A DNA stretch of 29,520 nucleotides from a virus, in IMG/VR virus record IMGVR_UViG_3300050120_000165, positions 1 to 29,520 of that record. The stretch is one strand, 5' to 3'. Below are positions 4,807 through 29,520 of the stretch, one piece after another (within the stretch, counting starts at the first letter, position 1; every line of letters begins with the position of its first letter). The position numbers were made by a program, and so were the translations under genes. Below the pieces are notes generated by a model, which saw only the letters and a program-made list of their open reading frames with translations, searched no databases and was not told the DNA's origin.

Positions 4807-5409
4807 TCAGGCCGCCTCGAGCAGCTCGGGAATGAACTTGTTTGATTTGCTCAGATTTTCTTTTGCTGGGATCACGCGCATGTTGTGAGCAACATGCAGT
4901 CCGCAAACCAACTTTCCGCGAAGCGGAATAATGTGGTCAACGTGATGCCGAATCCCTGTCACTTTCGTCAGCCGGGCGCATTCCTTGTACATCCTGTAAA
5001 TCGCATATCTATCTGCCCATGCGGGCGTCGCCCTCAGGCGTTGCGCCCGCTGACGTGCGCGAAACTCGGCGACGGCTCCGGGATGTTGGGCACACCAGAT
5101 CCGATAACGCTCAAGATGCTTCTCATATTCGAAGGGATCGGCAAGCTTTCGCCGCTTCGCCTCACGCGCGATCTTTCGATCGTATTCAGGATTTGCAAGC
5201 CGCCGAGCCTTAACCTGAGCAGCGCCTCGTGCGACCTGCGCAGATCTGTTCCGCTCATAGAAAGCTTTATAAGTCGCCGCTGCGCATACCTTGCAATGAT
5301 GTCCGAAGCCATCTTTGGTGTTTTTGGCCGTACAAAAGAAAACATTTGTACGCGGCGATACAACCAAGCATTTCGTGCAAGTCTTTGTGTCAAAATCTTT
5401 AACAGTCAT
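4807..5409 (-). CDS. HNH homing-type endonuclease with N-terminal zinc motif
   Basis: The protein has 200 residues. An N-terminal Cys cluster (CTKC at 11-14, HCKVC at 38-42) suggests a zinc ribbon. A basic, Arg/Ala-rich helical middle probably contacts DNA. The C-terminus carries an HNH core: HHVDHIIPLRGKLVCGLH, then NMRVIPAKENLSKSNKF. The core resembles that of the endonuclease at 19464-20162. The gene lies between sheath and tube, two genes normally adjacent in Mu-like tails, and is flanked by hairpins. These traits point to a free-standing homing endonuclease rather than a packaging HNH protein. Confidence 0.82.
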   Translation of the reverse strand: MTVKDFDTKTCTKCLVVSPRTNVFFCTAKNTKDGFGHHCKVCAAATYKAFYERNRSAQVARGAAQVKARRLANPEYDRKIAREAKRRKLADPFEYEKHLERYRIWCAQHPGAVAEFRARQRAQRLRATPAWADRYAIYRMYKECARLTKVTGIRHHVDHIIPLRGKLVCGLHVAHNMRVIPAKENLSKSNKFIPELLEAA

Positions 5410-10939: not shown

Positions 10940-11821
10940 TTAGGCCGTGATCGTTTTGATCAAAGCCCGAAACGCGGCATCAGGCGCCGCCACTTCATCC
11001 GCGAGTCCAAGGGCGACACCTGCAGCACCCATGAAGCACGCGGCCTTCGTACCTCTGACCGTGGCGGCCGAGATATTCCGATTGCGGGCAACCGTTTCAA
11101 CGAACAGTTCGCCCATCGCATTGATGTCGGCCTGAAAGCGCGCTTGCGCTTCATCCGAAAGTGGCAGCTCGGCGTGGCCGTCTGCCTTGTAGTCCCCGTA
11201 GGTGATGAAAGTGACCTTGATGCCTGCTGCGGTGAGCGCCTCCGACATATCCACGTGCGCCGCAATCACACCAATGCTGCCGACGCCACCAGTCCGCGGT
11301 ACATAGATCTTGTCCGCAGCGCTCGCAATGGCATATGCCGCCGAGTAGGCCGACTCATCCAGAATCGCCCAGATCGGTTTTCCGCCGCGCAGGCCGTAGA
11401 TCGTGTCTACCAAATCGAAACAGCCGGCGACCTCGCCGCCCGGCGAATCTATGTTGAGCGCAATCGCATCGACCTTCGGGTCGTCGATCGCAGCGAAAAG
11501 GTTTTGCCGGATGCCGTCGTACCCCGTAAGTCCAGAGTAGCCGCGTAGCGAACCCAGCTTCTGCACTAACGTCCCGCTAATTTCGATAAGGGCGACAGGG
11601 CCGACCATGTCATAGCCCGTTCTGGGATTGCCACCAGGTTCAGCGAATCCGTATTCGTCATCTTCCATAGCCGACGGGGCGAGGATGTTCCCATCCAAGC
11701 GGACGACCTGCGCGATGCCCAATCGATCAGCCAGAGCAGCGATCACGATCTCGGCCTTGCGGGGATGCAGCAGCAGCGGCGCATTTAGTACGCGCTGTGC
11801 TAGACGCGGCAACATGTTCAT
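10940..11821 (-). CDS. S49 family head maturation protease (lambda gpC/SppA-like)
   Basis: The start is ATG 11821 (MNMLPRLAQRVLNAP), overlapping the previous stop as ATGA, giving 293 residues. Motifs of the SppA/S49 fold are clear: VALIEISGTLVQKLGS, ALNIDSPGGEVAGCFDLVD and ESAYSAAYAIASAADKIYVP followed by GGVGSIGVI. The Ser in AYSAAYAIAS is the likely nucleophile. The enzyme should process portal, scaffold and itself during prohead maturation. In lambda it directly follows portal B, but here a GIY-YIG gene stands between them. Confidence 0.9.
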   Translation of the reverse strand: MNMLPRLAQRVLNAPLLLHPRKAEIVIAALADRLGIAQVVRLDGNILAPSAMEDDEYGFAEPGGNPRTGYDMVGPVALIEISGTLVQKLGSLRGYSGLTGYDGIRQNLFAAIDDPKVDAIALNIDSPGGEVAGCFDLVDTIYGLRGGKPIWAILDESAYSAAYAIASAADKIYVPRTGGVGSIGVIAAHVDMSEALTAAGIKVTFITYGDYKADGHAELPLSDEAQARFQADINAMGELFVETVARNRNISAATVRGTKAACFMGAAGVALGLADEVAAPDAAFRALIKTITA

Positions 11822-12672
11822 AGTGGGTTGGCCTTTCTCTTTGCCCATGCCGCGCGTATTGCAAGGTTTCGCCTCGTCAGCATCTCCGAATAACCTGGCG
11901 CCGCTTTGAGTGTTTCCGCCCTACGCTGTTGGACTTCTGGGTTTCGGATCCCTGCATTTATCGCCGCGCGCTGACGAGCCTTGAAGATCGGATCGCTCGT
12001 GACCGCGACGGTCGCCGCCCGCTGCCTTTCCCGAACGGCGGGGTCTCGGTATGCAGCACGAACGGCCTCGTTGCGCGCATTGATCTGCTCTTGCGTCGGA
12101 ACGTATGATCTGAATCGCTCACCAGCTTGTGCGCGCAGAACCGGATCCTCGAAGCGCTTCTTCATCAACACTGAATGCCGCTGTCTTCTATCGGCGTTGG
12201 CTGCAAGCGCTTTAAGGTGCGCAGACTGCCTTTCACGAGCTCCCGGCCGAGAAGTGGCTTCCCTGAGCTGGGCTATCAGCTTCTCTCGCGTCTTGGGATC
12301 CTGAGCAGCGATCTTTAGCCGCACCGACATGGCCTTCCTCTGCGCGGGAGTTCTAATCGCTCCCGCGGGGCCTTCGCCACCATCAGCATGGTTGGTGAGG
12401 TCAACTCCTTCAGCGCGAAACCGGCCGATCCAATATTTCTCGCGACACGACCAGTCTTCTCCGCACGCTTCGATCTTTCCGATAAGGGGACTGAGACCGA
12501 TCGCTCGCAAAGATCTGATCCAGTTATCGCGCCGGGTGTTGTGGCCTGGCAAATGTGCCTGATTGATATGCTGAGAAAGTCGGAGACTCAGTCGCGACAC
12601 CGTCTTTCCAACATATCGAACCATAAGCGTGCGTGGGTCTAGTAGTACGTATATGAACGTAACGCGACTCAT
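11818..12672 (-). CDS. GIY-YIG homing-type endonuclease with NUMOD-like repeats
   Basis: The protein has 284 residues. The N-terminal domain has the GIY-YIG signature (FIYVLL at 6-11, RYVGKT at 19-24, then RLSLRLSQHI). The rest is basic with recurring helical modules (TPAQRKAMSVRLKIAAQDP, RRQRHSVLMKKRFEDP, RERQRAATVAVTSDPIFKAR) like the DNA-binding NUMOD3 repeats of phage homing enzymes. Both ends form ATGA overlaps, with the portal stop upstream and the protease start downstream, so the gene is inserted exactly at a coupled junction. It probably cuts an uninterrupted portal/protease border in related phages (inference). Confidence 0.88.
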   Translation of the reverse strand: MSRVTFIYVLLDPRTLMVRYVGKTVSRLSLRLSQHINQAHLPGHNTRRDNWIRSLRAIGLSPLIGKIEACGEDWSCREKYWIGRFRAEGVDLTNHADGGEGPAGAIRTPAQRKAMSVRLKIAAQDPKTREKLIAQLREATSRPGARERQSAHLKALAANADRRQRHSVLMKKRFEDPVLRAQAGERFRSYVPTQEQINARNEAVRAAYRDPAVRERQRAATVAVTSDPIFKARQRAAINAGIRNPEVQQRRAETLKAAPGYSEMLTRRNLAIRAAWAKRKANPL

Positions 12673-18471: not shown

Positions 18472-18548
18472 TGGTTGCGGAAGAGAGGATTCGAACCTCC
18501 AACCTCCGGGTTATGAGCCCGGCGCGCTGCCAATTGCGCCACCCCGCA
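18472..18548 (-). tRNA. tRNA with CAT anticodon (Met type), CCA encoded
   Basis: The minus strand folds as a cloverleaf: acceptor TGCGGGG with TTCCGCA, D arm GCGC/GCGC with loop AATTGGCA, anticodon arm CCGGG-CTCATAA-CCCGG, T arm GGAGG-TTCGAAT-CCTCT, discriminator A and encoded CCA. The anticodon is CAT. One extra C stands between T stem and acceptor stem. The three G:C pairs at the loop and the identical CTCATAA loop recall initiator tRNA, but C11:G24 in the D stem and a T1:A72 pair differ from it. Decoding of AUA after lysidine modification is a further possibility. Confidence 0.88.
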
Positions 18549-18601: not shown

Positions 18602-19129
18602 TTAAACGCCATTCACCGAGGCAAACTCACCATGAAACTGCTTGGCAGCAGCATCATATGCGCGAGCCGCATCCGCCTCGTCCTTGAATAGGCCTAGATG
18701 AACCCTTTTCCCGAAGTGACGGATCTCCGCGCGCCATTGCCGACAATCTGGCTGGAAACGGACGCCCTTAAAGCGAGATGATTTTCCGGATTTCGGCGTC
18801 TGATTGTGTTGGTTCTGGGCATCCGTCGCGAGCCGCAGATTTCCGATGCTCTCATCGGACGGGTCGCGCGAGCGATGGTCAACTAGAAGACCGGGCGGTA
18901 TTTCGCCGCGGTGGAATATCCATATGCATCTGTTGGATGCATGCTTAACGCCGCCAACCTGAATACGTCTATAACCGTCATCGTCAACGGTTCCGGCTAT
19001 ATTGCCGCCCCAGATCTTATTGAACCGGACGTCGTCGGGTCTGTATCGCCATCTCAAGGCACCGGCGGCGGAATCGTATTCGAACAGCCGGACGACGTCC
19101 TCTTGAGATAAATCGCGTGCGCGCGTCAT
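18602..19129 (-). CDS. HNH endonuclease with C-terminal AP2 domain
   Basis: The protein has 175 residues. An N-terminal strand region (GALRWRYRPDDVRFNK, AGTVDDDGYRRIQVGG) leads into an HNH core (FHRGEIPPGLLVDHRSRD, then IGNLRLATDAQNQHNQ, residues about 72-110). Residues about 119-172 are an AP2 DNA-binding domain (RFKGVRFQPDCRQWRAEI, GLFKDEADAARAYDAAAKQF). This HNH-AP2 architecture is typical of phage homing endonucleases. It lies just upstream of the tRNA, and the pair is bracketed by two terminators. Confidence 0.9.
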   Translation of the reverse strand: MTRARDLSQEDVVRLFEYDSAAGALRWRYRPDDVRFNKIWGGNIAGTVDDDGYRRIQVGGVKHASNRCIWIFHRGEIPPGLLVDHRSRDPSDESIGNLRLATDAQNQHNQTPKSGKSSRFKGVRFQPDCRQWRAEIRHFGKRVHLGLFKDEADAARAYDAAAKQFHGEFASVNGV

Positions 19130-19467: not shown

Positions 19468-20162
19468 CCTGAAAATGTGTTTGGATCGAATCGGTTCGAT
19501 TTTCGTCTGTTCTCTTCGGTCGTGATGATCCGCATGTTGCCTTCCCAGTGAAGGCCGCATACAAGTTTGTTGACGACCGGCACAATGTGATCGACCTCGT
19601 GAGGGATACCGGTTTCCTCCTCGAGCCGAGCCCGTTCCAGGTATATCGCGAGCATCTTCTCCCGGTTCGCCCAACGTGGAGTGCCAAGCCGGATTAGCAT
19701 TTGTCGGCGGCGCGGCGGATCCTCGCACGCAGCAATTTCCGCGGCCCACATGCCTACAAGTTCAGGATTCCGCCAACGATTGTTATCCGCGACGTTGCGG
19801 ATCCGCTGCTCCGTCCACGCGAGCTGGTCCCGGCTCAATTCAAAGTGCCGGCTAATTATGAAATCAGCCGGCGAGAGCAGGACTTCTTCCAGCCATGGGT
19901 CGACTGGATCCCCGGTGGTTGCCTCATACCATGCTCGGAACTCAGCGCTACGCAGTCTGTCGTGTATCTGCTCCAAAAGCTGAAAATTTTCAGCGGAACG
20001 CCGCACCACCGCCGCGTCCGGCGCAGTTAGTGACCATCGTGCCCGGCGCTCGCTGATTTCCTTCGTCAAGGCGGCATGCTTGGATTTTCGCCGGTCATGT
20101 CGTTTTTCAGGAAGATCTGGCTGCGCGAACTTGCTGGCTTTCACGTCGGGCCACGTGCTCAT
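19464..20162 (-). CDS. HNH endonuclease next to the late promoter
   Basis: The start is set at ATG 20162 (MSTWPDVKASKFAQPDLPEK), seven bases after the previous stop; the longer frame to 20324 would run inside that gene. The protein has 232 residues, with a basic N-terminus, a helical middle (DAAVVRRSAENFQLLEQI) and a C-terminal HNH core (HEVDHIVPVVNKLVCGLHWE, then NMRIITTEENRRKSNRF). The core closely parallels the endonuclease at 4807-5409 (KLVCGLH, NMR.I, EN..KSN.F). HNH proteins can assist packaging in cos phages, but that resemblance suggests a homing-type enzyme. Confidence 0.82.
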   Translation of the reverse strand: MSTWPDVKASKFAQPDLPEKRHDRRKSKHAALTKEISERRARWSLTAPDAAVVRRSAENFQLLEQIHDRLRSAEFRAWYEATTGDPVDPWLEEVLLSPADFIISRHFELSRDQLAWTEQRIRNVADNNRWRNPELVGMWAAEIAACEDPPRRRQMLIRLGTPRWANREKMLAIYLERARLEEETGIPHEVDHIVPVVNKLVCGLHWEGNMRIITTEENRRKSNRFDPNTFSG

Positions 20163-20169
20163 ATTGTCA

Positions 20170-20550
20170 CTACCCCTTTGTGGCTTCCGCAGCTGCGGGC
20201 TGGGGTTGATAGAGCACCTCACGCACCGCCGCCAAAAGCACGGCGCCGACGATCGATCGCACGTGGCGCTGCGATTCCGGCGGCTGCACTTCTGCGCCGT
20301 ATATCTCGGGAGCCGGTTGTTCAAGCGCGTCTACGCCGGCTTCAATGACCTCGTTGGAAAAAGAGTGAAGCACCGACCAATCCGTCTTCGCGCCGAACAA
20401 CAAGAATTCACCGGCTCGCCGCGCATCCGCGCATGTTCGCATCCGATCAACCCGCGCGACCAGGACGCCGTCATCAAGCAGATCGACTCGCCAATACTCG
20501 CCGTCCGTTGAATAGTGCCCGGTCACAGAAAATGAGAAGTTCTCAGCCAT
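20170..20550 (-). CDS. hypothetical protein
   Basis: This is a 126-residue soluble protein with an AAGGA ribosome site seven bases before ATG. It has an N-terminal beta part (ENFSFSVTGHYSTDGEYWRV, DLLDDGVLVARVDR), then helix-forming segments and a C-terminal helix rich in Ala/Val (RSIVGAVLLAAVREVLYQP). No family is recognised. Context: between the Q-position gene and an HNH endonuclease. Confidence 0.6.
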   Translation of the reverse strand: MAENFSFSVTGHYSTDGEYWRVDLLDDGVLVARVDRMRTCADARRAGEFLLFGAKTDWSVLHSFSNEVIEAGVDALEQPAPEIYGAEVQPPESQRHVRSIVGAVLLAAVREVLYQPQPAAAEATKG

Positions 20551-20568
20551 CGTGTTGCTTCCTTTTGG

Positions 20569-21297
20569 TTACGCGGGTTCGCCGACGAAGCCAAGGCTCG
20601 TGAGCGCTGTGTCAATCTTTTTGCGGGCCGAGGATTCGATGCCATCGATCGCCGGTGTTGGTTCTTTACTGCCCTTCGCGTGCTGAGCCTTCTGCCCTGA
20701 AATCCACAATTTGATGATCTTTCCGTGAGCGGTCGCCGTGTTCTTGTGCGCACCGCATTGTTCTGCGACGCGCTCCAGCACCACCTTCTCGCCGAAGATC
20801 TTCTCAATGATCTTGCGGCGCAGCAGATAGTGCGAAAAATGGCCAGACAGAACGGTCAGAGCCCCCTGTTCTAGCACGCGAATGGCTGCATCCCATTCCG
20901 GGTTGAGTGTGTATCCAGCGCAGCAGGCGCGTTTGCAGCTGCAAGGAATCGACCGCGGGGCGAAGCGAGCGATCAAGGTCGCCCGCTCGAACACAGTCAG
21001 TTTTTCCATCTCCCCGGCGATGAGACTCCAGCGTCGCCCTACCTCGTTGCCGGCGGCCGCCATGGTTTCTTCCAGCGATGAGGGCAGCGCGTCGCCATCT
21101 CCCATGCCGCCCATCACCCGCCTGATCATGCCGGCCTGCGCGGCACCGTCAACGCCCGATAAGCCCTTCCCGGTGCGCGCCGCCGGCGAGGCAAGCCGGT
21201 CAGCGAGCGGTCGCCCCTGTTGCTGCATCGAATAGTTGAATGCGAACACGAGCGCGGCTTGTGGCGTTCGAAACAGTATTGTTGTGGGCTCAGTCAT
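20569..21297 (-). CDS. Cys/HTH protein in the position of the Q late antiterminator
   Basis: The protein has 242 residues. A Cys cluster (CSCKRACC, residues 119-126) suggests metal binding. Residues about 172-198 (VVLERVAEQCGAHKNTATAH, then GKIIKLW) look like a helix-turn-helix. It is the last regulator-like gene before a promoter-terminator pair of the pR'-tR' type. Lambda Q (207 residues) also has zinc-binding Cys and binds DNA. No clear sequence match to the known antitermination families is seen, so the role is inferred from position and motifs. ATGA overlap with the preceding gene. Confidence 0.6.
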   Translation of the reverse strand: MTEPTTILFRTPQAALVFAFNYSMQQQGRPLADRLASPAARTGKGLSGVDGAAQAGMIRRVMGGMGDGDALPSSLEETMAAAGNEVGRRWSLIAGEMEKLTVFERATLIARFAPRSIPCSCKRACCAGYTLNPEWDAAIRVLEQGALTVLSGHFSHYLLRRKIIEKIFGEKVVLERVAEQCGAHKNTATAHGKIIKLWISGQKAQHAKGSKEPTPAIDGIESSARKKIDTALTSLGFVGEPA

Positions 21298-21497
21298 TTG
21301 CGCTTTCCTCTCGGGTTCGAGCGGACGTATTCTTCCAACTTCAAATAGAGCGGGTGATCGGCCAGATCAATCCGCACCACCTCGTCATCCATGATCAGAT
21401 CCTCGTTGATCGTGATCTTCACGGACCGCACAAAGCCCGGATTGGCCTTGGTGTCGAACGACACGTGGAACGTGTCTGGCTGTTTTTTATCGGTCAC
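21294..21497 (-). CDS. small hypothetical protein
   Basis: The start is taken as GTG 21497 (VTDKKQPDTFHVSFDTKANP), overlapping the previous stop as GTGA, with AAGGA upstream. A longer frame would run through the upstream gene. The 67-residue product has two strands (FVRSVKITINEDLIM), an acidic patch and a basic C-terminus (NPRGKRK). Function unknown. Confidence 0.6.
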   Translation of the reverse strand: MTDKKQPDTFHVSFDTKANPGFVRSVKITINEDLIMDDEVVRIDLADHPLYLKLEEYVRSNPRGKRK

Positions 21498-21703
21498 GTC
21501 TTTTCCTTGTATTTCCCGCATCGCGTTCCGTACTTCTTCCCTTTCTTGCAAACCATCTTTGTGCCGCTGAGCCCGTCCGACCTCTCTACCGCGTGCGCAC
21601 ATCCGATGCAAAGCTCGCCTCGTTTATGCTCGAATACCTCCTCTGGATTGCGGTATTGCCATGACTCCAGCACCCGGGTTTCGCGCCCGCGCTTGGGTTT
21701 CAT
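21494..21703 (-). CDS. small Cys-rich protein, possible zinc ribbon
   Basis: The 69-residue basic protein has Cys at CIGC (residues 32-35), C52 (MVCKKG) and C62 (RCGKYK). The four Cys could bind one zinc ion. The N-terminus (RGRETRVLESWQYRNPEEVF) is amphipathic. It overlaps the DUF2591 gene stop as ATGA. No family is named with confidence; a small nucleic-acid-binding role is possible. Confidence 0.6.
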   Translation of the reverse strand: MKPKRGRETRVLESWQYRNPEEVFEHKRGELCIGCAHAVERSDGLSGTKMVCKKGKKYGTRCGKYKEKT

Positions 21704-22065
21704 GGTGATACCGGCGGTACCTCTTCACCGAAAGCCTCCGCGACGCGAAGCCTGCAGATCGCAATCTCCGGTCGCGCATCGATATACATGCCGTGGAAAC
21801 CAGAGTTCAGCTGCGCCTCGGCGAGCCAGATCACTTCCTTCGAGCCCGGCTCGGCGGCGCGCGGGTACAACAGGTATCGCTGGCGCTTCAGGATCGGCCC
21901 GAGCAACGTCCAGTTCTGCGTGGGCACGTAGACCATGTGTCCCTGGTAGGGGATATCGACGCGGCAATAGTCCATGCCGTTCGCGTGAATGAGGGCCGAG
22001 TCCAAGCCCTCCGCGAGCGCGACGAAATGATCCAATTGCGCTCCGTGAAGGTTATCGACCAACAT
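21700..22065 (-). CDS. DUF2591-like phage protein (NinX type)
   Basis: The start is placed at ATG 22065 (MLVDNLHGAQLDHFVALAEG) because AGAGG stands seven bases upstream. This gives 121 residues and a 14-base overlap with the HNH gene. The N-terminus followed by GMDYCRVDIPYQGHMVYVPT, NWTLLGPILKR and a closing YIDARPEIAICRLRVAEAFG is characteristic of the DUF2591/NinX group from phage nin regions. The biochemical role is unknown. Confidence 0.75.
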   Translation of the reverse strand: MLVDNLHGAQLDHFVALAEGLDSALIHANGMDYCRVDIPYQGHMVYVPTQNWTLLGPILKRQRYLLYPRAAEPGSKEVIWLAEAQLNSGFHGMYIDARPEIAICRLRVAEAFGEEVPPVSP

Positions 22066-22645
22066 GGCGATACCTCTCAAACGGCTTGAGGCCGATTGCG
22101 GCCTCGGGAGGGACACCTCGTAAGATTCGGTGTCGAATGGTTCCTGCGCGAATTCCCGTCTCTTGAGCCCAAGCAGCCACGCATTGAGTCTTTCCGAACG
22201 CCTCGACGTTCATGTTTCGAGAAACGTTGCGGGATTGAGCAGTGCGCGACGCCCAGACACAATTGCCGGGTTCATAACCCTTTTTGCCGTTTTCGCGCTC
22301 CAGCGTCATCCCGGGCGGTGGCTCTCCCATCTCGGCCAAAAAGTTCTCAAATGACCGCCATCTGTCGCATACACGGATCCCGAGCTTTAGATAGTGAGGA
22401 TGATGGCCGCACCTGTGGATCATGCTTTCCCATCGGCTATAGACAAGACTGTCGTGCATGCCATGTATGCGATGGGCTTCTACCTGCAGATCTGCGCAGG
22501 TAGAAAATGCAGACTTGAGAACGGAATGGCCCCCGACTCGAATGCGATAAAAAAGCGTTTTGTAGGGCACGCCCACCAACAGAGCGAACGCTTTCAACGT
22601 GAGCGACTTTTCATCGCGGCGCTTTAAGCCTCTCATGTGCGCCAC
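22052..22645 (-). CDS. HNH-like homing-type endonuclease
   Basis: There are two possible starts: ATG 22645, or ATG 22636, which overlaps the previous stop as ATGA. The product has 197 or 194 residues. The N-terminus has a helix-turn-helix-like segment (LTLKAFALLVGVPYKTLFYR). The core is of the phage type SRWESMIHRC, GIRVCDRWRSFENFLAEMGE, MTLERENGKKGYEPGNCVWA. A second HTH-like repeat (KTQCVAAWAQETGIRAGTIR) closes the protein. It overlaps the next gene beyond its ribosome site, consistent with insertion into a coupled junction. Confidence 0.82.
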   Translation of the reverse strand: MAHMRGLKRRDEKSLTLKAFALLVGVPYKTLFYRIRVGGHSVLKSAFSTCADLQVEAHRIHGMHDSLVYSRWESMIHRCGHHPHYLKLGIRVCDRWRSFENFLAEMGEPPPGMTLERENGKKGYEPGNCVWASRTAQSRNVSRNMNVEAFGKTQCVAAWAQETGIRAGTIRHRILRGVPPEAAIGLKPFERYRHVGR

Positions 22646-22956
22646 CGGGATTCAATGCCGAGCCCGAGACGCAGCGCCTCCGGGATGTTGGTCAGGATGG
22701 GCGTTTCGTCGTCAACAGCCACGCCGCTGATCGGGCGCAGCCACGAGTCGAGCACGCCGCACTCGTGCACGGGATTTTCGTTGCTGAACCACGGCGTCGG
22801 GAACTTGCACCACCATATTGGCCGCTGATCCCATTCGGGGCCCGGGCCGCGTGGCGGAACAAAGCGGACCACCTCGACCACCTTGTTATCGAGCGTCTTA
22901 CGCGGCCAGTCAGACGGGACGACGACGAACGCGAGAATTCCGGGTTTACAATTCAC
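22633..22956 (-). CDS. hypothetical phage protein
   Basis: The protein has 107 residues, starting MNCKPGILAFVVVPSDWPRK. A beta-rich N-terminus (KVVEVVRFVPP), Trp-rich middle (RPIWWCKFPTPWF) and LRPISGVAVDDETP follow. The MNCKPG.LA.VV opening recalls small proteins common in phage nin-like regions, with no assigned role. It lies between two endonuclease genes with ATGA overlap. Confidence 0.65.
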   Translation of the reverse strand: MNCKPGILAFVVVPSDWPRKTLDNKVVEVVRFVPPRGPGPEWDQRPIWWCKFPTPWFSNENPVHECGVLDSWLRPISGVAVDDETPILTNIPEALRLGLGIESRWRT

Positions 22957-23588
22957 GATGCCTCCAATGGGTATTTCAATCGGCTACCCCAGCCCGGGCG
23001 CGGAGGGTAGTGCTTTCCTGAATGAACGCCGCCGTTGCATCCACGAATCACGACCGATGGATGAACGCCCAACGCGAGAGCCGCTGCGCGTGACGATTCA
23101 TATTCGATTCCATCAATAAGCCAGAACCTCGACACTCGCTTATTGATGGAATTGACTGCCGGGCTTACCCACGTGCAGTTCCCCGGTCCATAGTCTTTAT
23201 CGTTGTGTTCACGCTCAATCCATGCGCCGCTCGGACGAGGGCCCATGTATTCGAGGAAGTCTTCAAACCCTTTCCAAAGCACCCGAATTCCGCGGCCACC
23301 ATAGTTTGCGTAGTGTCGATTTTTCGGGTTGCCGCAACGATCTTTCATGTTGCGGAAGATCCGATATTCAGAAGTGCGCGATGCGCCGTGGGTTAAATTG
23401 GCGGTTCTGTTTTGTTCAGCTCGAAGACACCCACACGACTTCGCTCGGCCGTTTCTCAACGAACCTCGTTGCGGCGTCACGATATTTCCGCAGGCGCATT
23501 TACATTCCGCCTTTGGGTTCTTCCCGGCCGAGATCAGTCCAATGACAGTAAGCCTGCAGAAGACATCGCCAATACGGATCTCAGACAT
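22953..23588 (-). CDS. HNH-like homing-type endonuclease with N-terminal Cys motif
   Basis: The protein has 211 residues. It opens GDVFCRLTVIGLISAGKN, then a Cys cluster (ECKCACGN at 28-35, KSCGCL at 50-55). The core is SEYRIFRNMKDRCGNPKNRH, YANYGGRGIRV, WIEREHNDKDYGPGNCTWVS, a pattern of many free-standing phage endonucleases. A C-terminal HTH-like stretch (YESSRAAALALGVHPSVVIR) may direct DNA binding. The start overlaps the Ref-like gene by eight bases and the stop forms ATGA with the next gene. Confidence 0.85.
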   Translation of the reverse strand: MSEIRIGDVFCRLTVIGLISAGKNPKAECKCACGNIVTPQRGSLRNGRAKSCGCLRAEQNRTANLTHGASRTSEYRIFRNMKDRCGNPKNRHYANYGGRGIRVLWKGFEDFLEYMGPRPSGAWIEREHNDKDYGPGNCTWVSPAVNSINKRVSRFWLIDGIEYESSRAAALALGVHPSVVIRGCNGGVHSGKHYPPRPGWGSRLKYPLEAS

Positions 23589-23997
23589 GCGTCACCTCTG
23601 ATTTCACCTGGTCGAGCAGATCCGCTTCTGTTCCATATTTGCGCTCCCACTCTTTCCTGCCGGCATGAAATGCCACGCCATAACCGCCGATACGATGGTG
23701 TCTGGGGCACAGTGGAATAGTTTCGAGGTTTCCCGCACGTTGACCTCCGCCGGCCAGGAAGCGAACGTGATGAACCTCAGCAGGGCTTTCACCTAACTGA
23801 AGGTTCCGACACACGATGCAATACAAGCCAGCGACGACGCCCATATGTTCACGTTCAGCTTTGGTCGCGGGCTTCCGCGCCTTCTTCTTAATGGCGGAAC
23901 GACGCAGGGATGTAGCTCGGTCAGCCGTGTTATCGAAAGGTGAGGACTTACGGGAGAATCCCGAGCGTTTCATCGGTGTTTTGCGCGTAAGCGTCAT
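23581..23997 (-). CDS. HNH nuclease of the Ref (RecA-dependent nuclease) type
   Basis: The start is ATG 23997 (MTLTRKTPMKRSGFSRKSSP), overlapping the previous stop as ATGA; 138 residues. A basic disordered N-terminus precedes the nuclease domain: YCIVCRN, AEVHHVRF, LETIPLCPRHHRIGGYGVAF, then HAGRKEWERKYGTE. This matches the phage P1 Ref family, which cuts DNA at RecA-made displacement loops. Its place in a nin-like block suggests a recombination role rather than homing. Confidence 0.78.
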   Translation of the reverse strand: MTLTRKTPMKRSGFSRKSSPFDNTADRATSLRRSAIKKKARKPATKAEREHMGVVAGLYCIVCRNLQLGESPAEVHHVRFLAGGGQRAGNLETIPLCPRHHRIGGYGVAFHAGRKEWERKYGTEADLLDQVKSEVTHV

Positions 23998-24125
23998 TTC
24001 GCCGCCCACCAGAAGACGACGGCTACCACGACATATCCGATGCTCACGCGTATGGCGAAGTCAGCTCTCAAATGCGGGGCTGCGACAATCATCGCGAGCA
24101 GGATGAAAAGTTGAGGCGACTTCAT
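23994..24125 (-). CDS. 43-residue membrane protein
   Basis: ATG 24125 overlaps the previous stop as ATGA, and the TGA at 23996-23994 overlaps the next start as ATGA, so it fills the operon exactly. The protein MKSPQLFILLAMIVAAPHLR is hydrophobic from residue 5 to 17. A second hydrophobic segment follows at about 24-42 (VSIGYVVVAVVFWW), ending AAK. Two short membrane helices are likely. No family is recognised; the size and form are like phage small membrane proteins or an atypical holin-like peptide. Confidence 0.72.
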   Translation of the reverse strand: MKSPQLFILLAMIVAAPHLRADFAIRVSIGYVVVAVVFWWAAK

Positions 24126-24457
24126 CCGACCTCCTGTTCAATGACAAGGCGGTCGACGCCTTTGGGGAATGGTGGGATCTCGACGCGGCGGTTCAGCGCA
24201 GTCGACACGCTCAGTTGCACCTCGCCAGACATCAGGCGAGACCACTTCTCCGGAGGTGTGACCCAAGGCGGTAAGCGTACGAACGCGATGTATGAGATTT
24301 GGCTCGACTCCGCCCACCGGCGCCGCGAGTACCATTGGCGGCGCGGTGGTGACACGATGCGCACGAGCTCGATCACGTCGCACTCTATAAGGCAGGGAGT
24401 CCGCAGCCATTGAGGGATGCCGAAGACCACGAACTCTTTCGGTACGGAGAAAGTCAT
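24122..24457 (-). CDS. hypothetical protein
   Basis: The start is chosen at ATG 24457 (MTFSVPKEFVVFGIPQWLRT) for the ATGA overlap with the previous stop; an ATG two codons earlier is possible. The 111-residue protein is basic with many Arg and Trp (PPRRQWYSRRRWAESSQ) and strands at IELVRIVS and ISYIAFVRLP. It is not recognised. It lies between a winged-helix gene and the small membrane protein. Confidence 0.6.
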   Translation of the reverse strand: MTFSVPKEFVVFGIPQWLRTPCLIECDVIELVRIVSPPRRQWYSRRRWAESSQISYIAFVRLPPWVTPPEKWSRLMSGEVQLSVSTALNRRVEIPPFPKGVDRLVIEQEVG

Positions 24458-25089
24458 GCGCATAGCGAAGCATCCGTTTGCCCACGGGCGCGTCTCGAAG
24501 GCCGGCGCTCTGCCGGACCGAATAGCGCAGCTGCAGCTGGGTCGCGCTTCACCAGCGTTCCAGTGCGTAAGCTTTGCATCAACCTCTTACGGGCGAGAAT
24601 GGCCTCATGCGCGGCCGGATCCTCTTTACGCATTCGCTCGATGCGCTTGCGTTCGAGAACCTTATGGGGGATCGGCCTTGGTCGTGGGGCATCCTCACCG
24701 GCCCCAAGCGCCCACATGCGCGACGGCTTGCCATGCGGTGAAAAACGCTCCCATCGCGTTATGTGAATCTTGCCGGCCGCATATAGCGCATTTACTCGAA
24801 AGCGCGCTGGCCGCTCACAGATCCCCAGCTTCACGGCGAGCTCGGCTATATCCATCGGGCGCAGTTCGAGCAGCTTTAAGATCAACACTTCGTTCGGGCC
24901 GCCGCGATTTGCCGGCCCCGCCGATTTCGCGGGCAGGCCCATCGCGTGTGCTTTTCCGAGGATCGAATCAATCGAGCGGCCGTTGAACAAATGAAGGTTC
25001 TTTTTCAGACCTTCGGGGCGTGACCAGACATCGACCAGGTCGATTTTTTCCTGCTCGCTCCACGAGGTCCATGCCTGACGCTCTGCCAC
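24454..25089 (-). CDS. winged-helix DNA-binding protein with SANT/Myb-like N-terminus
   Basis: The protein has 211 residues with a GTG start and a GGAGG site. Residues about 5-52 (WTSWSEQEKIDLVDVWSRPE, SIDSILGKAHAMGL) resemble a Myb/SANT-like helical module. Residues about 65-128 look like a winged helix (NEVLILKLLELRPMDIAELA, then RPARFRVNALYAAGKIHITR). The C-terminal 80 residues are strongly basic. A regulatory or DNA-metabolism role in the early operon is likely, but the target is unknown. Confidence 0.68.
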   Translation of the reverse strand: MAERQAWTSWSEQEKIDLVDVWSRPEGLKKNLHLFNGRSIDSILGKAHAMGLPAKSAGPANRGGPNEVLILKLLELRPMDIAELAVKLGICERPARFRVNALYAAGKIHITRWERFSPHGKPSRMWALGAGEDAPRPRPIPHKVLERKRIERMRKEDPAAHEAILARKRLMQSLRTGTLVKRDPAAAALFGPAERRPSRRARGQTDASLCA

Positions 25090-25101
25090 GCTTGCCTCCG
25101 T

Positions 25102-25425
25102 TCAGTACGTTGTCGGTTGTGCGACGGCGCGCGTGAGCGCCATGAAGCCCTGCTGCAGATGATCGTCCACGAGACATACCCACCGGAACGGGCCGTCATC
25201 GTGTCCACCGTAGATCGCGCCTGCCACAAACTCGACTGGCTCGGAAACCTCACCAGGCGCGAGCGTCAGCGCTGGCAACGCTCCGATGGTCGGGACTACG
25301 GTTTCGCGGACTGCGAGCACAAGCGAGCGGGTTTCCTCGGCATGCGCCTTGATACGGTTCATGAGATCGATCTCGGCTTGCGACAAGTCGCGGTAGCCCT
25401 TGATCTGTTTGTGCTGGTTGTCCAT
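25102..25425 (-). CDS. Tad1/Acb2-type cyclic nucleotide sponge (anti-CBASS / anti-Thoeris)
   Basis: The start is ATG 25425 (MDNQHKQIKGYRDLSQAEID), with GGAGA upstream; a longer frame to 25620 overlaps the DUF1064 gene. The 107-residue product opens with the Acb2 signature, including Y11 and K26, residues I recall as ligand-binding in Acb2. It ends with the matching helix (DDHLQQGFMALTRAVAQPTT). A stretch of about 40 residues with strands (EPVEFVAGAIYGGHDDGPFR) splits the two helices, as in Tad1, making it longer than typical Acb2 as I recall it. These proteins sequester CBASS or Thoeris signal molecules and so protect the phage from abortive defence. Ligand choice cannot be read here. Confidence 0.82.
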   Translation of the reverse strand: MDNQHKQIKGYRDLSQAEIDLMNRIKAHAEETRSLVLAVRETVVPTIGALPALTLAPGEVSEPVEFVAGAIYGGHDDGPFRWVCLVDDHLQQGFMALTRAVAQPTTY

Positions 25426-25453
25426 GTCTCTTTTCTCCGAGTGAAATAAGGGT

Positions 25454-26023
25454 TCACCAACTGCGGCTGGTGAGGTCTTCAAAGCTCCAGCCGTGGCGGC
25501 CGGCACGCTTGATTGCGATGAAACGATAGGGATGCTGTGAAGCCGCGACCTTGATCTTGGTGCGCGCTTTGTCGGTCCAATGACCCTTGACCTCGTGGTA
25601 CTCAGTGCTTCCGTCAGCAACGATCACCGTGAAGTCGGGGGTATAGAACGTGTTGTCGGCGAGCCGCAGCTTGTGGGCTTCGAACCGATAGAAGAGAACC
25701 TCGCCGATGTGGCGCCGCGCGAATAGGAGCTGCTCGTACGCTGCTTCCGTTTTGTTCATGCGGCCGGTACCGAGCCTTCCGAGCGCCTGGTTGCGCTGGA
25801 GGGGCGTCAGATCCTTCGAAATTTCGATATTTCGAAAACTCGAAATGCACGTCTTTACATCACGCGGTATGACGACCATTCGTGAAATTGCCGCGTCGAG
25901 CGGCACGTGCTCGTCCGATGCTAAACGCGCCGCCGCATCGGCGATCTGCGAATGGATGCGCGCGGTACCGACGCGGCCACCAGCGATCGCGCTTTCTGGA
26001 AAGCGGACGGTGCCCTTGCTCAT
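25454..26023 (-). CDS. DUF1064 PD-(D/E)XK nuclease-like protein
   Basis: The protein has 189 residues. The C-terminal half is the DUF1064 pattern: GRMNKTEAAYEQLL, GEVLFYRFEAHKLRLAD, FYTPDFTVI, TEYHEVKGHWTDKARTKIKV. It carries the nuclease-fold triad E93, D130 and E144-V-K146. The N-terminal 85 residues (SDEHVPLDAAISRMVVIPRD, LTPLQRNQALGRLG) are extra. Members occur in phage recombination/nin regions and probably cut branched DNA or assist replication. ATGA overlap with the previous gene. Confidence 0.8.
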   Translation of the reverse strand: MSKGTVRFPESAIAGGRVGTARIHSQIADAAARLASDEHVPLDAAISRMVVIPRDVKTCISSFRNIEISKDLTPLQRNQALGRLGTGRMNKTEAAYEQLLFARRHIGEVLFYRFEAHKLRLADNTFYTPDFTVIVADGSTEYHEVKGHWTDKARTKIKVAASQHPYRFIAIKRAGRHGWSFEDLTSRSW

Positions 26024-26343
26024 GGGTTGTCTTGCGCTCCGAGCGCTTCGTCAATCAACTCACGGAAACGGAGATCGAACTGATGTGCAAGAACGGTTTG
26101 CCTGTAAGACAGATACTCTCGGTCAGGCAGCAGCATTTCAAATGGCAGGTAATACGCCTTGGCGATCTGCGAGAGCATCTCCCGTTGGAATTCGGCGAAG
26201 GGGCCATCGCCCTCCCACGACTGCAACCGAATCTCAGTGTCGAGCCAGAAAAACTGATCGACGGGCTGCAGCTGTGAAAGGATCAGTGCGGGCACGAGCA
26301 CGATCGGCGCGCAGATCGCGGCGAGGAGTAGGATCTCGCTCAT
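26020..26343 (-). CDS. hypothetical protein with N-terminal membrane anchor
   Basis: The 107-residue protein has a hydrophobic helix at residues about 4-24 (ILLLAAICAPIVLVPALIL) that should anchor it in the inner membrane. The soluble remainder contains DQFFWLDTEIRLQSWEGDGP and LSQIAKAYYLPFEML, then YLSYRQTVLAHQFDLRFREL. Part of this faintly recalls portal C-terminal motifs. No assignment is made. ATGA overlaps on both sides. Confidence 0.6.
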   Translation of the reverse strand: MSEILLLAAICAPIVLVPALILSQLQPVDQFFWLDTEIRLQSWEGDGPFAEFQREMLSQIAKAYYLPFEMLLPDREYLSYRQTVLAHQFDLRFRELIDEALGAQDNP

Positions 26344-26552
26344 TTGAAGTCCGCCAGATATTCAATCGGCCACACGCGCGCGCGGCGAACCACCTGTACG
26401 GCTTTCAACACTTCATGCTCTGACAGCAGGTCCGTAAGCGACCGCGACTTACCGGGGGTGCTGGCCATCGTCCAGCTGAGCACGGGGAGCTCGAAGCGAT
26501 CCTTGCCGGAGCCGATGGAAATCGTGCAATCAATCGTGTTGAATGAGTTCAC
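26340..26552 (-). CDS. small hypothetical protein
   Basis: The start is GTG 26552, overlapping the previous stop as GTGA; 70 residues. A beta-like N-terminus (TIDCTISIGSGKDRFELPVL) is followed by a helix (SLTDLLSEHEVLKAVQVVRR) and a short tail. Not recognised. The tight overlaps support that it is translated. Confidence 0.6.
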   Translation of the reverse strand: MNSFNTIDCTISIGSGKDRFELPVLSWTMASTPGKSRSLTDLLSEHEVLKAVQVVRRARVWPIEYLADFK

Positions 26553-26758
26553 GAGCGAACCTCGCCACGCGCCGCCATCAAGCTAGTCAGATCCGCATCG
26601 AGTCGTTCGAGGTGCTGCAGCTCGTCCCTGTACGCGTTCACGACTTTGTTATGCGCCGCGATCTGATTGGCGAGATCGAGCTGACGTTGCTCCGATTGGC
26701 GCAGCAGCCGGCGGACGTTTTCAAGGGTTTCATCCCACGCGACGAGATTGACTGCCAT
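26549..26758 (-). CDS. small coiled-coil protein
   Basis: This is a 69-residue protein with a strong GAGGAG ribosome site six bases before ATG. Nearly the whole length is predicted helix with heptad-like spacing (ETLENVRRLLRQSEQRQLDL, NKVVNAYRDELQHLERLDAD). No family is recognised; it may oligomerise or bind another phage protein. Confidence 0.62.
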   Translation of the reverse strand: MAVNLVAWDETLENVRRLLRQSEQRQLDLANQIAAHNKVVNAYRDELQHLERLDADLTSLMAARGEVRS

Positions 26759-26768
26759 GCTGTTCTCC

Positions 26769-27254
26769 TCAGAACGGTGGTTCGCCGACAGTGCCGCCGA
26801 GGTATTGCGTGCGGATCATGCTGTCGACATGAAATGCGTCCAGGGCCTCGAGCACGACAAACACCTTGCCTGGATGGGCAATGGCGAGGCGCTCGGCTTC
26901 GGCTCGGGCCGATTCGATCGACGTATGGGCGTAGGACGGCGGCTTTTGTCCGGTCGGCGACCAGACGAGCCAAAAGGCTGATTCGGTTTGTTTTGGCATG
27001 GGGGGAGGAAAAGGGCGTGGGCGGGGATAACCGAGCGCTTCCCACGCGCTTGCGTAGGACGCGTTCGCGAATTGGGCGGCAAGCTGTTCGTAGGGACCGA
27101 TCGCGCCAATGGGCCAGCTCAAGTCACGGGCAGAAAACGCGGCTAATTCGCGCTTCCGTTGCTCACGGATGGCTGCAATGTCGGCGGCCACCCAACCTTC
27201 GGGTTCGAAGTACGTGGCCATGGACTGCAAACCGTTGTCGGGAGGCGTGCTCAT
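26769..27254 (-). CDS. hypothetical phage protein
   Basis: The protein has 161 residues, ATGA-coupled to the replication gene. The N-terminal helical part (WVAADIAAIREQRKRELAAF) leads to a Pro-rich linker (YPRPRPFPPPMP). The C-terminal 70 residues form a strand-helix unit (TESAFWLVWSPTGQKPPSYA, ESARAEAERLAIAHPGKVFV) that I recognise as a recurrent small phage domain without known function. Confidence 0.65.
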   Translation of the reverse strand: MSTPPDNGLQSMATYFEPEGWVAADIAAIREQRKRELAAFSARDLSWPIGAIGPYEQLAAQFANASYASAWEALGYPRPRPFPPPMPKQTESAFWLVWSPTGQKPPSYAHTSIESARAEAERLAIAHPGKVFVVLEALDAFHVDSMIRTQYLGGTVGEPPF

Positions 27255-28360
27255 GATGCGTAGTCGTCCACGGGCATCAGCGCGTCGCCGAACGTCTTGC
27301 GAGCAAGTTGATAGAGATCAACCTGGTTGAAGCGCTGCGCGTCCGAGAGCACGAACTCGATAGCCCGCGGTTCGCGCGATGCCTTGACGACCAGCACGCG
27401 GTAGTAGCGCCAGTCTTCGTCGGGTTTGCGCGGGCGTTGCGACAACTCGGCGCCGCGGGCATCGACACCCTCAGGGCTGCGATACCACTCGCCGGGTTCT
27501 GTTGCGGCGCATGTGGCGGGTGACGGTGCCAGCGCCTCGTCGATGAACGTCGTGACGAAACCGACATAGGTCGGGCGGTCGTCGCTGTCGCGCTTGCGGG
27601 CAGCAACGGCGGCCGCGTGGGCCACGCGCAGCTGATCGACCGTCACGCCCTTGCCGACCCATGCCAGGACGTAGACGCGATCGCGAGTTCGATCGATCGT
27701 CAGTTCCTTGCCTCGCTTTCGCTCCAGGTCGATCAGCAGGTCCCGGAGCTCGCCCTCGGTGTTCGGGGTTTCGTTTTTCAAATCGGCAGCAGCGGCAGCA
27801 GACTTATCCACAGCGTCGCTCGCGCGCGTTGCTGCTGTAGTCTCTGCTGTAATCTCTGTACCGTTAACGACATGGTCAAACCCTTCCCCGCGGGCGTGGT
27901 TTTCCCCATCTGGCGGCGTGGGAATTTCCAATTTCGCGACATGGACTTTTCCCATCTCCCGAGATGGACTTTTCCCATTTCGGGAGATGGACTTTTCCAA
28001 GGTGCTATCGGGTGATTTCTTAACCTTGCGATCAGGCGGTGGAGACGAGAGAAGGCGTTCGAGCTCATCCTCGTCAACGCGGAAATACGTCCTGTGCTCA
28101 ATGCGTTTCTGCGTCTCGATCAGAACGCCGGCGGCGCGCAGTTTCGTGCGGGCAGCGCGCTGTTCCTCGTAGGACAGGCCAGTTTCCGTTTCTAGCTCAT
28201 CGACCGTCTTATGGACGCCCAGCTCGCTTGTGGCCTTGTCCTGCCAGTAGAAGATCTGACAGAAGAACACTGCAGCATTCACGCCGCCCAGGTAGCGCGC
28301 CAAGAATGGGTAGTAGGCGATCGGACGCCCGAGCTCGCGCAGAACGTCGGCGACCCTCAT
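27251..28360 (-). CDS. replication initiator (lambda O-like) with internal origin
   Basis: The protein has 369 residues. A winged-helix N-terminus (residues about 10-105: YYPFLARYLGGVNAAVFFCQ, HKTVDELETETGLSYEEQRA, KLRAAGVLIETQ, YFRVDEDELERLL) is typical of phage replication initiators. A low-complexity linker (about 110-195) is encoded by the DNA repeats at 27896-28009. A helical C-terminal domain (DLLIDLERKRGKELTIDRTR, VDQLRVAHAAAVAAR) may contact a helicase loader or helicase. No separate helicase or loader gene is seen in the window. Confidence 0.78.
   Translation of the reverse strand: MRVADVLRELGRPIAYYPFLARYLGGVNAAVFFCQIFYWQDKATSELGVHKTVDELETETGLSYEEQRAARTKLRAAGVLIETQKRIEHRTYFRVDEDELERLLSSPPPDRKVKKSPDSTLEKSISRNGKSPSREMGKVHVAKLEIPTPPDGENHARGEGFDHVVNGTEITAETTAATRASDAVDKSAAAAADLKNETPNTEGELRDLLIDLERKRGKELTIDRTRDRVYVLAWVGKGVTVDQLRVAHAAAVAARKRDSDDRPTYVGFVTTFIDEALAPSPATCAATEPGEWYRSPEGVDARGAELSQRPRKPDEDWRYYRVLVVKASREPRAIEFVLSDAQRFNQVDLYQLARKTFGDALMPVDDYAS
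27804..27812 (+). promoter_or_regulatory. perfect DnaA box TTATCCACA
   Basis: The nonamer is identical to the strongest E. coli DnaA box (R1 type). It lies inside the replication gene, 84 bases from the iteron array. One such 9-mer could arise by chance in a window of this size, so its weight comes from the location. Confidence 0.6.
27896..28009 (+). repeat. iteron array, candidate replication origin
   Basis: Five units repeat with a 22-23 base period from 27896, 27918, 27941, 27964 and 27987. The strongest (27941 and 27964) match at 20 of 23 bases and start ATGGACTTTTCCCAT; the fifth shares the first 12. Unit junctions form palindromes such as CCATCTCCCGAGATGG (27952-27967) and CCATTTCGGGAGATGG (27975-27990). 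The 23-base period is not a multiple of three, so the repeats are kept as DNA, not as a peptide. Lambda ori has iterons at the same place, inside gene O. Confidence 0.75.
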
Positions 28361-28935
28361 ACGCCACCTTCGCGGATAGCCTTAGGAATACGCCTCTCAG
28401 CGTGCAGGCGCTGATCCCAATAGCGGAAATAGAACGACGTCATCCACTTGTCGATGACGGCCTGTGGGACCTTCTCGCGGCCGAGGACGTGCGGCGCACG
28501 CGCAACCTGAATCCGGAAACCGTCAGAGAGCACACGCTCACGATCGTCGTGCAGAAACGTCAGATTGGATTCGACGTGCCACACGCCGGCCTCCGGCGGA
28601 ACGAAGTCGGGAATGCCCAGCGACACCGGTACGACGTAGATGAACCGCGTCACCCATGCCGGAAACCCCCGCGTGGACCATTTCGGCTTGGCCAGGTCGG
28701 CTTTCCAGTCAGCGCGCGAAACCTTCACCTCAAGCTCAGTGCCGTACCCGGCCTTGGTGATCGACATGAAGTCCGCTCGGTATGAGCCGCGGTGGCTGCC
28801 GTAGCCGCTCCAGATCTCCGCCTCGGGAATCAGCATGTTCGCGCGGTGATCGACGTGGCGGCGCACAGCCGCTTCGACGAGGCCGGCGTTCATGGGAACG
28901 GTCGCTTGTTTCTTTTCTGCCATGCGCTTACTCAT
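28357..28935 (-). CDS. MmcB-like PD-(D/E)XK DNA repair/nuclease-fold protein
   Basis: The start is set at ATG 28935 (MSKRMAEKKQATVPMNAGLV), overlapping the preceding stop by eight bases; ATG 28923 is also possible. The 192-residue protein has SYRADFMSIT and ELEVKVSRADWKADLAKPKW, giving the D55, E69-V-K71 arrangement of PD-(D/E)XK enzymes. It continues with FIYVVPVSLG and a C-terminal RIQVARAPHVLGREK. This is the pattern of the MmcB family of DNA repair proteins. Activity on phage or host DNA is unknown. Confidence 0.72.
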   Translation of the reverse strand: MSKRMAEKKQATVPMNAGLVEAAVRRHVDHRANMLIPEAEIWSGYGSHRGSYRADFMSITKAGYGTELEVKVSRADWKADLAKPKWSTRGFPAWVTRFIYVVPVSLGIPDFVPPEAGVWHVESNLTFLHDDRERVLSDGFRIQVARAPHVLGREKVPQAVIDKWMTSFYFRYWDQRLHAERRIPKAIREGGV

Positions 28936-29212
28936 TTGGCTCTGCCGTCGCAAGCAGTCTGTCCAGGCGGTACATGTGCGCGCCGCCCTCAAGAGCGCCT
29001 GGAACCAGAGAGATGTGGCGCTTGGCGATCAGCGTCTTGAGCTGGGCGCGCACGCAGCTGTCGGACAAACCGCACATGAACGCCAGGCGCGCAACCGTGA
29101 CCGAGCACTTGCCCGTGCTCTGAATGCTCATATGGGCGAGCGCGAGCAATACGATCTTCTGGTTGCCCTTCAGCTCGATATCCCACGCTCGATTCGAAAG
29201 ATGGTGTGACAT
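28928..29212 (-). CDS. winged-helix DNA-binding protein
   Basis: The protein has 94 residues. Helices LKGNQKIVLLALAHMSI, KCSVTVARLAFMCGLSDSCV and RAQLKTLIAKRHISLV, followed by a short wing, form a typical winged helix (HTH_36-like) found in phage replication proteins and regulators. It lies just ahead of the replication block and overlaps the next gene. It may be a repressor of its operon or an initiator accessory; the sequence alone does not decide. Confidence 0.75.
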   Translation of the reverse strand: MSHHLSNRAWDIELKGNQKIVLLALAHMSIQSTGKCSVTVARLAFMCGLSDSCVRAQLKTLIAKRHISLVPGALEGGAHMYRLDRLLATAEPNE

Positions 29213-29230
29213 GTGTCCCGCCCGGGCGTA

Positions 29231-29419
29231 TCAGTGAAGCAAATTCTGTGATTCCCACAACCGGGCAACGCCCAGGATCGTGAGCGCTTCGTGCAATCGC
29301 GGATCGGCATGCATCATGTTGATGAACAGGGCCTTTACCGCTTCCTCGTTGTCTCCTGCCAGGGCGCGTGCACGATCCAGCGCCTCTTTCGCAATCGTCT
29401 TAGCGTCGCTTTCTTTCAC
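29231..29419 (-). CDS. small helical hypothetical protein
   Basis: GTG 29419 overlaps the upstream stop as GTGA with GGAG nine bases before it; 62 residues. The protein is nearly all helix (VKESDAKTIAKEALDRARAL, NEEAVKALFINMM, LHEALTILGVARLWE). No family recognised. Confidence 0.6.
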   Translation of the reverse strand: MKESDAKTIAKEALDRARALAGDNEEAVKALFINMMHADPRLHEALTILGVARLWESQNLLH

Positions 29420-29520
29420 CGGCTGTTCTCCACCGCGAAAAATTCTTCGACCAGGCGCATGCCCATGTCGCGCGCAATCCACTGCGCGATCGCGGCGTTG
29501 CCGATCTGGGCCTGCACATC
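29416..29520 (-). CDS. C-terminus of a gene cut by the right edge, possibly C5 DNA methyltransferase
   Basis: The frame is open from the edge to TGA and encodes 34 residues beginning DVQAQIGNAAIAQWIARDMG and ending in EEFFAVENSR. The QIGNA followed by a helix is like motif X near the C-terminus of cytosine-5 DNA methyltransferases. With only 34 residues the identity stays uncertain. Confidence 0.45.
   Translation of the reverse strand, partial: DVQAQIGNAAIAQWIARDMGMRLVEEFFAVENSR

Follow-up and report, generated by a model that had tools for sequence, protein, structure and literature searches.

Acb2 is an established family of phage-encoded sponges that take up cyclic-nucleotide signals of bacterial immunity. 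The Acb2 of Pseudomonas phage PaP2 forms a hexamer with 3'3'-cGAMP in the structure 8H2J (PMC11722364); two protomers contribute N- and C-terminal elements to the cGAMP pocket (PMC10419184). In the Acb2 of phage T4 (Vs.4), the alanine mutant of Tyr8 (Y8A) was described as binding-deficient, and the substitution T68M, found in the Panoptes-resistant phage Bas35, is reported to lower the affinity (PMC12657230). Triggering of Panoptes is a known cost of Acb2 (PMC12657218, PMC12657230). Tad1 (PDB 8smd) has in common with Acb2 the sponge principle and the Pfam hairpin family, but it is composed of an N-terminal antiparallel β-sheet followed by two long C-terminal helices, and among the three classic sponges gcADPR binding has been described for Tad1 and Tad2 but not for Acb2 (PMC12043709). 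Here, an unannotated further member of the Acb2 family is described in a phage genome.

The window, i.e., the whole stretch of DNA that was analysed, is an IMG/VR virus record of 29,520 bases. Genes of a tailed phage, including GpA terminase, lambda-type portal, E-type capsid, S49 protease and contractile tail sheath, are encoded on its minus strand, and a replication-type block with an O-like initiator and a resolvase-like nuclease occupies its high coordinates (Table 1). The acb2 gene is an intact open reading frame that starts with ATG 28 bp after the end of the resolvase-like gene; a GGAG ribosome-binding-like site (...TCACTCGGAGAAAAGAGAC-ATG) precedes it. The early placement given to it in a preliminary description of this DNA agrees with its position inside the replication/early-type block, between the resolvase-like and other replication-type genes, and early expression would be expected from this position. 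The downstream neighbour has no Pfam or PHROG match; a 31%-identical relative of it is present in the LB400 prophage, in the same block at a different place. A gene for a Ref-like RecA-dependent nuclease lies a few genes from acb2, and a tRNA-Met (CAT) gene separates the structural and early blocks. Five homing-endonuclease-like genes are also present in the window, among which those at 22052, 22953 and 4807 have no Pfam match and the first two of these are mutually similar (38.6%). No near DNA relative of positions 20000-29520 was found among sequenced phages by megablast.

Table 1. Location of acb2, its segments and other features mentioned in the text (window coordinates).
Feature	Position	Strand	Basis
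acb2-like gene, 107 aa, cyclic-nucleotide sponge (predicted)	25102..25425	-	PF24729, PDB 8h2j/8ixz, AlphaFold model
N-terminal segment, residues 1-43: helix 4-7, conserved MDNQHKQIKGYRDL with Y11, helix 16-43 with N23 and K26	25297..25425	-	model, alignment
Inter-helix loop, residues 44-78, length-variable	25192..25296	-	low pLDDT, clade alignment, length spectrum
C-terminal segment, residues 79-107 and stop: helix 79-102 with R81, W82, D88, Q91 and R99; tail A102-x-P104	25102..25191	-	model, alignment
Intergenic gap with GGAG ribosome-binding-like site	25426..25453	-	read from sequence
Holliday-junction-resolvase/endonuclease-like protein, 189 aa, upstream neighbour	25454..26023	-	phrog_190, E = 2.9e-22
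Protein of 211 aa without family, downstream neighbour	24454..25089	-	Pfam, PHROG
O-like replication initiation protein, upstream of acb2 in the same gene block	27251..28360	-	phrog_9773, E = 8e-39
Ref-like RecA-dependent nuclease	23581..24009	-	PF16786, E = 6.9e-11
tRNA-Met (CAT)	18472..18548	-	
Homing-endonuclease-like gene	18602..19129	-	HNH_3 and AP2 (Pfam)
Homing-endonuclease-like gene	11818..12672	-	weak GIY-YIG (Pfam)
Homing-endonuclease-like gene	22052..22645	-	
Homing-endonuclease-like gene	22953..23588	-	
Homing-endonuclease-like gene	4807..5409	-	

The 107-residue protein clearly belongs to the Acb2 family. It matches the whole model (positions 1-58) of Pfam PF24729, Acb2_Tad1_hairpin, with 45.9 bits (E = 6.7e-12), against a curated cut-off of 27 bits, and both conserved segments of the hairpin are present (residues 1-43 and about 78-107). 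The profile search proposed in the preliminary description thus bears out its assignment to the Acb2/Tad1-hairpin family and its claim of both helices. Single-sequence search of the PDB with phmmer returned Acb2 chains only (8h2j, E = 1e-14; 8ixz, E = 5e-14), and a profile of 46 relatives matched 8h2j (3e-31), 8ixz and also T4 Vs.4 (7uq2, 9e-8); no match was obtained in NCBIfam. With PaP2 Acb2 (p26; PDB 8h2j, 8h2x, 8ixz) it shares the start MDNQHKxIKGYRDLSQxEID, residues Y11, N23 and K26, the C-terminal RA[VI]AQP, the helix plan and R81, which corresponds to R67 in PaP2; the PaP2 protein differs in being 93 aa long, in having an unrelated inter-helix segment and in carrying K73-T74-D75 where D87-D88-H89 is found here. 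T4 Acb2 (7uq2) is only about 20% identical and lacks the MDNQH start, but the fold and the I-x-G-Y motif are common to both proteins. Homologs of Aeromonas phage 25 and of the viral contigs L011-L024 are about 43-54% identical and share the motif D-H-L-Q-Q-G-F-M-A-L-T-R-A-V-A, whereas they are shorter (68-99 aa), with shorter loops.

Conservation within the family was assessed in an alignment of 132 sequences consisting of the window protein, PaP2, a T4 fragment and relatives. Tyr11 is kept in 131 of them, and Asn23 and Lys26 are invariant (132/132), so that the two residues singled out in the preliminary description, Y11 and K26, are both present; K26 is a putative ligand contact. Y11, N23 and K26 align with Y8, N20 and K23 of T4 Acb2, respectively, and the N- and C-terminal segments published as the cGAMP pocket are the conserved parts of this protein. 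At the level of single residues, the published evidence on ligand binding used here concerns T4 Y8 and T68 (PMC12657230).

The AlphaFold model of the monomer (pLDDT 80) contains a short helix (residues 4-7), a long helix (16-43), a loop and a second long helix (79-102). In Foldseek, six significant matches were obtained with this model, all of them to the Acb2 structures 8h2j and 8h2x (best E = 4e-5); T4 Vs.4 ranked next, and the remaining three matches had probabilities below 0.1. The TM scores against 8h2j were 0.60/0.69 with 36-38% identity in the structural alignment, and the antiparallel packing of the helices is read from this match, the rmsd of which is high (6.9) owing to the low-confidence loop or the packing angle. 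The two long helices are separated by 35 residues of low model confidence, in which the preliminary description had seen a β-like segment splitting the hairpin. A structured β insert is rejected at the level of prediction, since residues 44-78 form no strand of three or more residues in either of two AlphaFold runs, the second of which was based solely on long-loop relatives, whose loops can be aligned. Total protein length ranges from 73 to 117 aa across the 132 sequences, mostly because of this region, and the "split" hairpin is an ordinary length-variable inter-helix loop of the Acb2 family. Two protomers form the dinucleotide pocket with their N- and C-terminal elements and, as the helices are antiparallel, the loop is expected at the opposite end from this pocket. 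Given such wide variation within the family, it therefore provides no ground for a Tad1-type label.

It had been suggested on account of this segment that the protein could be a Tad1-type member with a different ligand range. A sponge of this type would take up mainly gcADPR and thereby counter Thoeris, and Pfam does join the hairpins of Acb2 and Tad1 in one family. The N-terminal β domain of Tad1, however, is absent: the conserved Acb2 start MDNQHKQIKGYRDL is found at residue 1, and no sheet appears in either AlphaFold model. No Tad1 structure occurred among the PDB sequence matches (to E = 1) or the Foldseek matches (to E = 10), so that the structural comparison with Tad1 and Acb2, made with the monomer, was positive for Acb2 only. 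Tad1-type identity was rejected for want of a β domain and of a Tad1 match by sequence, profile or fold, and its probability is considered close to negligible. Of the two systems proposed as targets, CBASS and Thoeris, the latter is unlikely because, of the three sponges, Tad1 and Tad2 have been reported to bind gcADPR and Acb2 has not (PMC12043709), and anti-CBASS activity is the most likely function in view of the Acb2 family membership.

Most probably, therefore, the acb2 product is an Acb2-family sponge that would sequester the cyclic di- and trinucleotides of CBASS during phage growth; we place the probability of this reading at about 0.88. By analogy with the family, the protein is expected to form a hexamer. 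Cyclic dinucleotides of CBASS would be clamped between two protomers arranged head to head, by their conserved N- and C-terminal elements, and cyclic trinucleotides would bind at the trimer interfaces. The signals would be sequestered without degradation, and by holding down the host alarm the sponge would prevent CBASS effectors from causing cell death ahead of the production of phage progeny. Of 20 genomes with an Acb2 relative, only 3 had a SMODS CD-NTase, a count that, lacking a matched background, says little about co-occurrence with CBASS.

The protein is also under strong purifying selection. Compared with nearby relatives of 64-81% identity, the window gene shows dN values of 0.11-0.27 and dS values of at least 1.3; synonymous sites are thus near saturation with little protein change, and the protein has been maintained by selection. 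This bears on the idea that the protein, while keeping the Acb2 fold, has lost its anti-immune role and buffers the cyclic dinucleotide signalling of the host (for example c-di-AMP or c-di-GMP) or plays a structural role. Such a change might be illustrated by a relative of the same clade (L010:6001-6327, 53% identical), in which nine residues (KxIxGYRDL, including Y11) are missing in frame, the frame is still open and the rest is conserved; this allele could be inactive (binding-dead), or could evade Panoptes or another sensor. The window copy, on the other hand, keeps all conserved residues in addition to being selected, and loss of the immune role is very improbable for it.

A feature in which the window protein differs from most of the Acb2 family is Asp88, which aligns with T68 of T4 Acb2 and T74 of PaP2 Acb2. 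Close to the beginning of the last helix, the conserved Thr is thus replaced here, although this position is variable in Acb2 and not defining: it is occupied by Thr in 100 of the 132 sequences, by Asp in 22 and rarely by other residues. In the tree, 21 of the 22 Asp sequences fall into two well- or fairly supported clades and one is a stray. Affinity or range of ligands may accordingly differ from those of relatives, and D88, which the preliminary description did not mention, is a better clue to an altered ligand range than the split hairpin. It is conceivable, though on balance unlikely, that the clade-specific motif V/A-D-D-H-L-Q-Q-G, with D88 for Thr, and the clade-conserved loop GxAIYxGHxxGPxRW alter the preference among cyclic di- and trinucleotides or avoid provoking Panoptes. 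The clustering of Asp in two clades, the reported effect of T68M at this position of T4 Acb2 together with its occurrence in a Panoptes-resistant phage (PMC12657230), and the conservation of loop residues 67-82 inside the nearest clade are indirect evidence for such a shift, but Asp may have no effect or be offset by other changes, and none of Y11, N23, K26 and R99 is altered. In a more speculative form, to which we attach a distinctly low probability, the clade would be a functionally distinct Acb2 variant, in which Asp for the pocket-region Thr and the clade-conserved loop redirect the sponge to other cyclic nucleotides, or allow CBASS to be silenced while Panoptes and other decoy-based sensors stay untriggered.

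The similarity of acb2 genes and that of their neighbourhoods do not follow the same pattern. A prophage of Paraburkholderia xenovorans LB400 (L108, also represented by viral record L068) has the neighbouring genes in the order of the window, and identity is 76-87% for the terminase and 67% for the initiator, yet the Acb2 occupying this slot shows only 45% identity to that of the window and belongs to another clade. Conversely, the nearest Acb2 relatives of the window (about 80%) are carried by phages whose terminases, where found, are about 30% identical. Since the same slot holds different lineages in related phages and near copies sit in phages with divergent terminases, acb2 is swapped between phages as a unit, in line with what would be expected for a counter-defence gene. 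The deep forks of the Acb2 tree are weak, the protein being short, and the conflict between gene similarity and neighbourhood is independent of them. L001, with 100% protein identity to the window across the scanned early genes bar one partial gene, represents the same phage population and is not counted as independent evidence. In the LB400 Acb2 (L068:6001-6312 / L108:8001-8312), SFRCGVMYAVRAVA replaces HLQQGFMALTRAVA and Tyr stands at the position of R81. A 137-aa open reading frame (L078:6001-6411) opens with the first 20 residues of Acb2, followed by an unrelated CxxC-containing protein, and is probably a fusion or recombination product.

With this gene, a predicted anti-CBASS sponge is added to the record of a phage whose early-type block closely matches that of a Paraburkholderia prophage. 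The distribution of different Acb2 lineages in one slot of related phages, and of near-identical copies in distant phages, characterizes acb2 as an exchangeable cassette, and the change from Thr to Asp at a site that affects affinity in T4 Acb2 offers a simple test of the determinants of ligand range in this sponge family.
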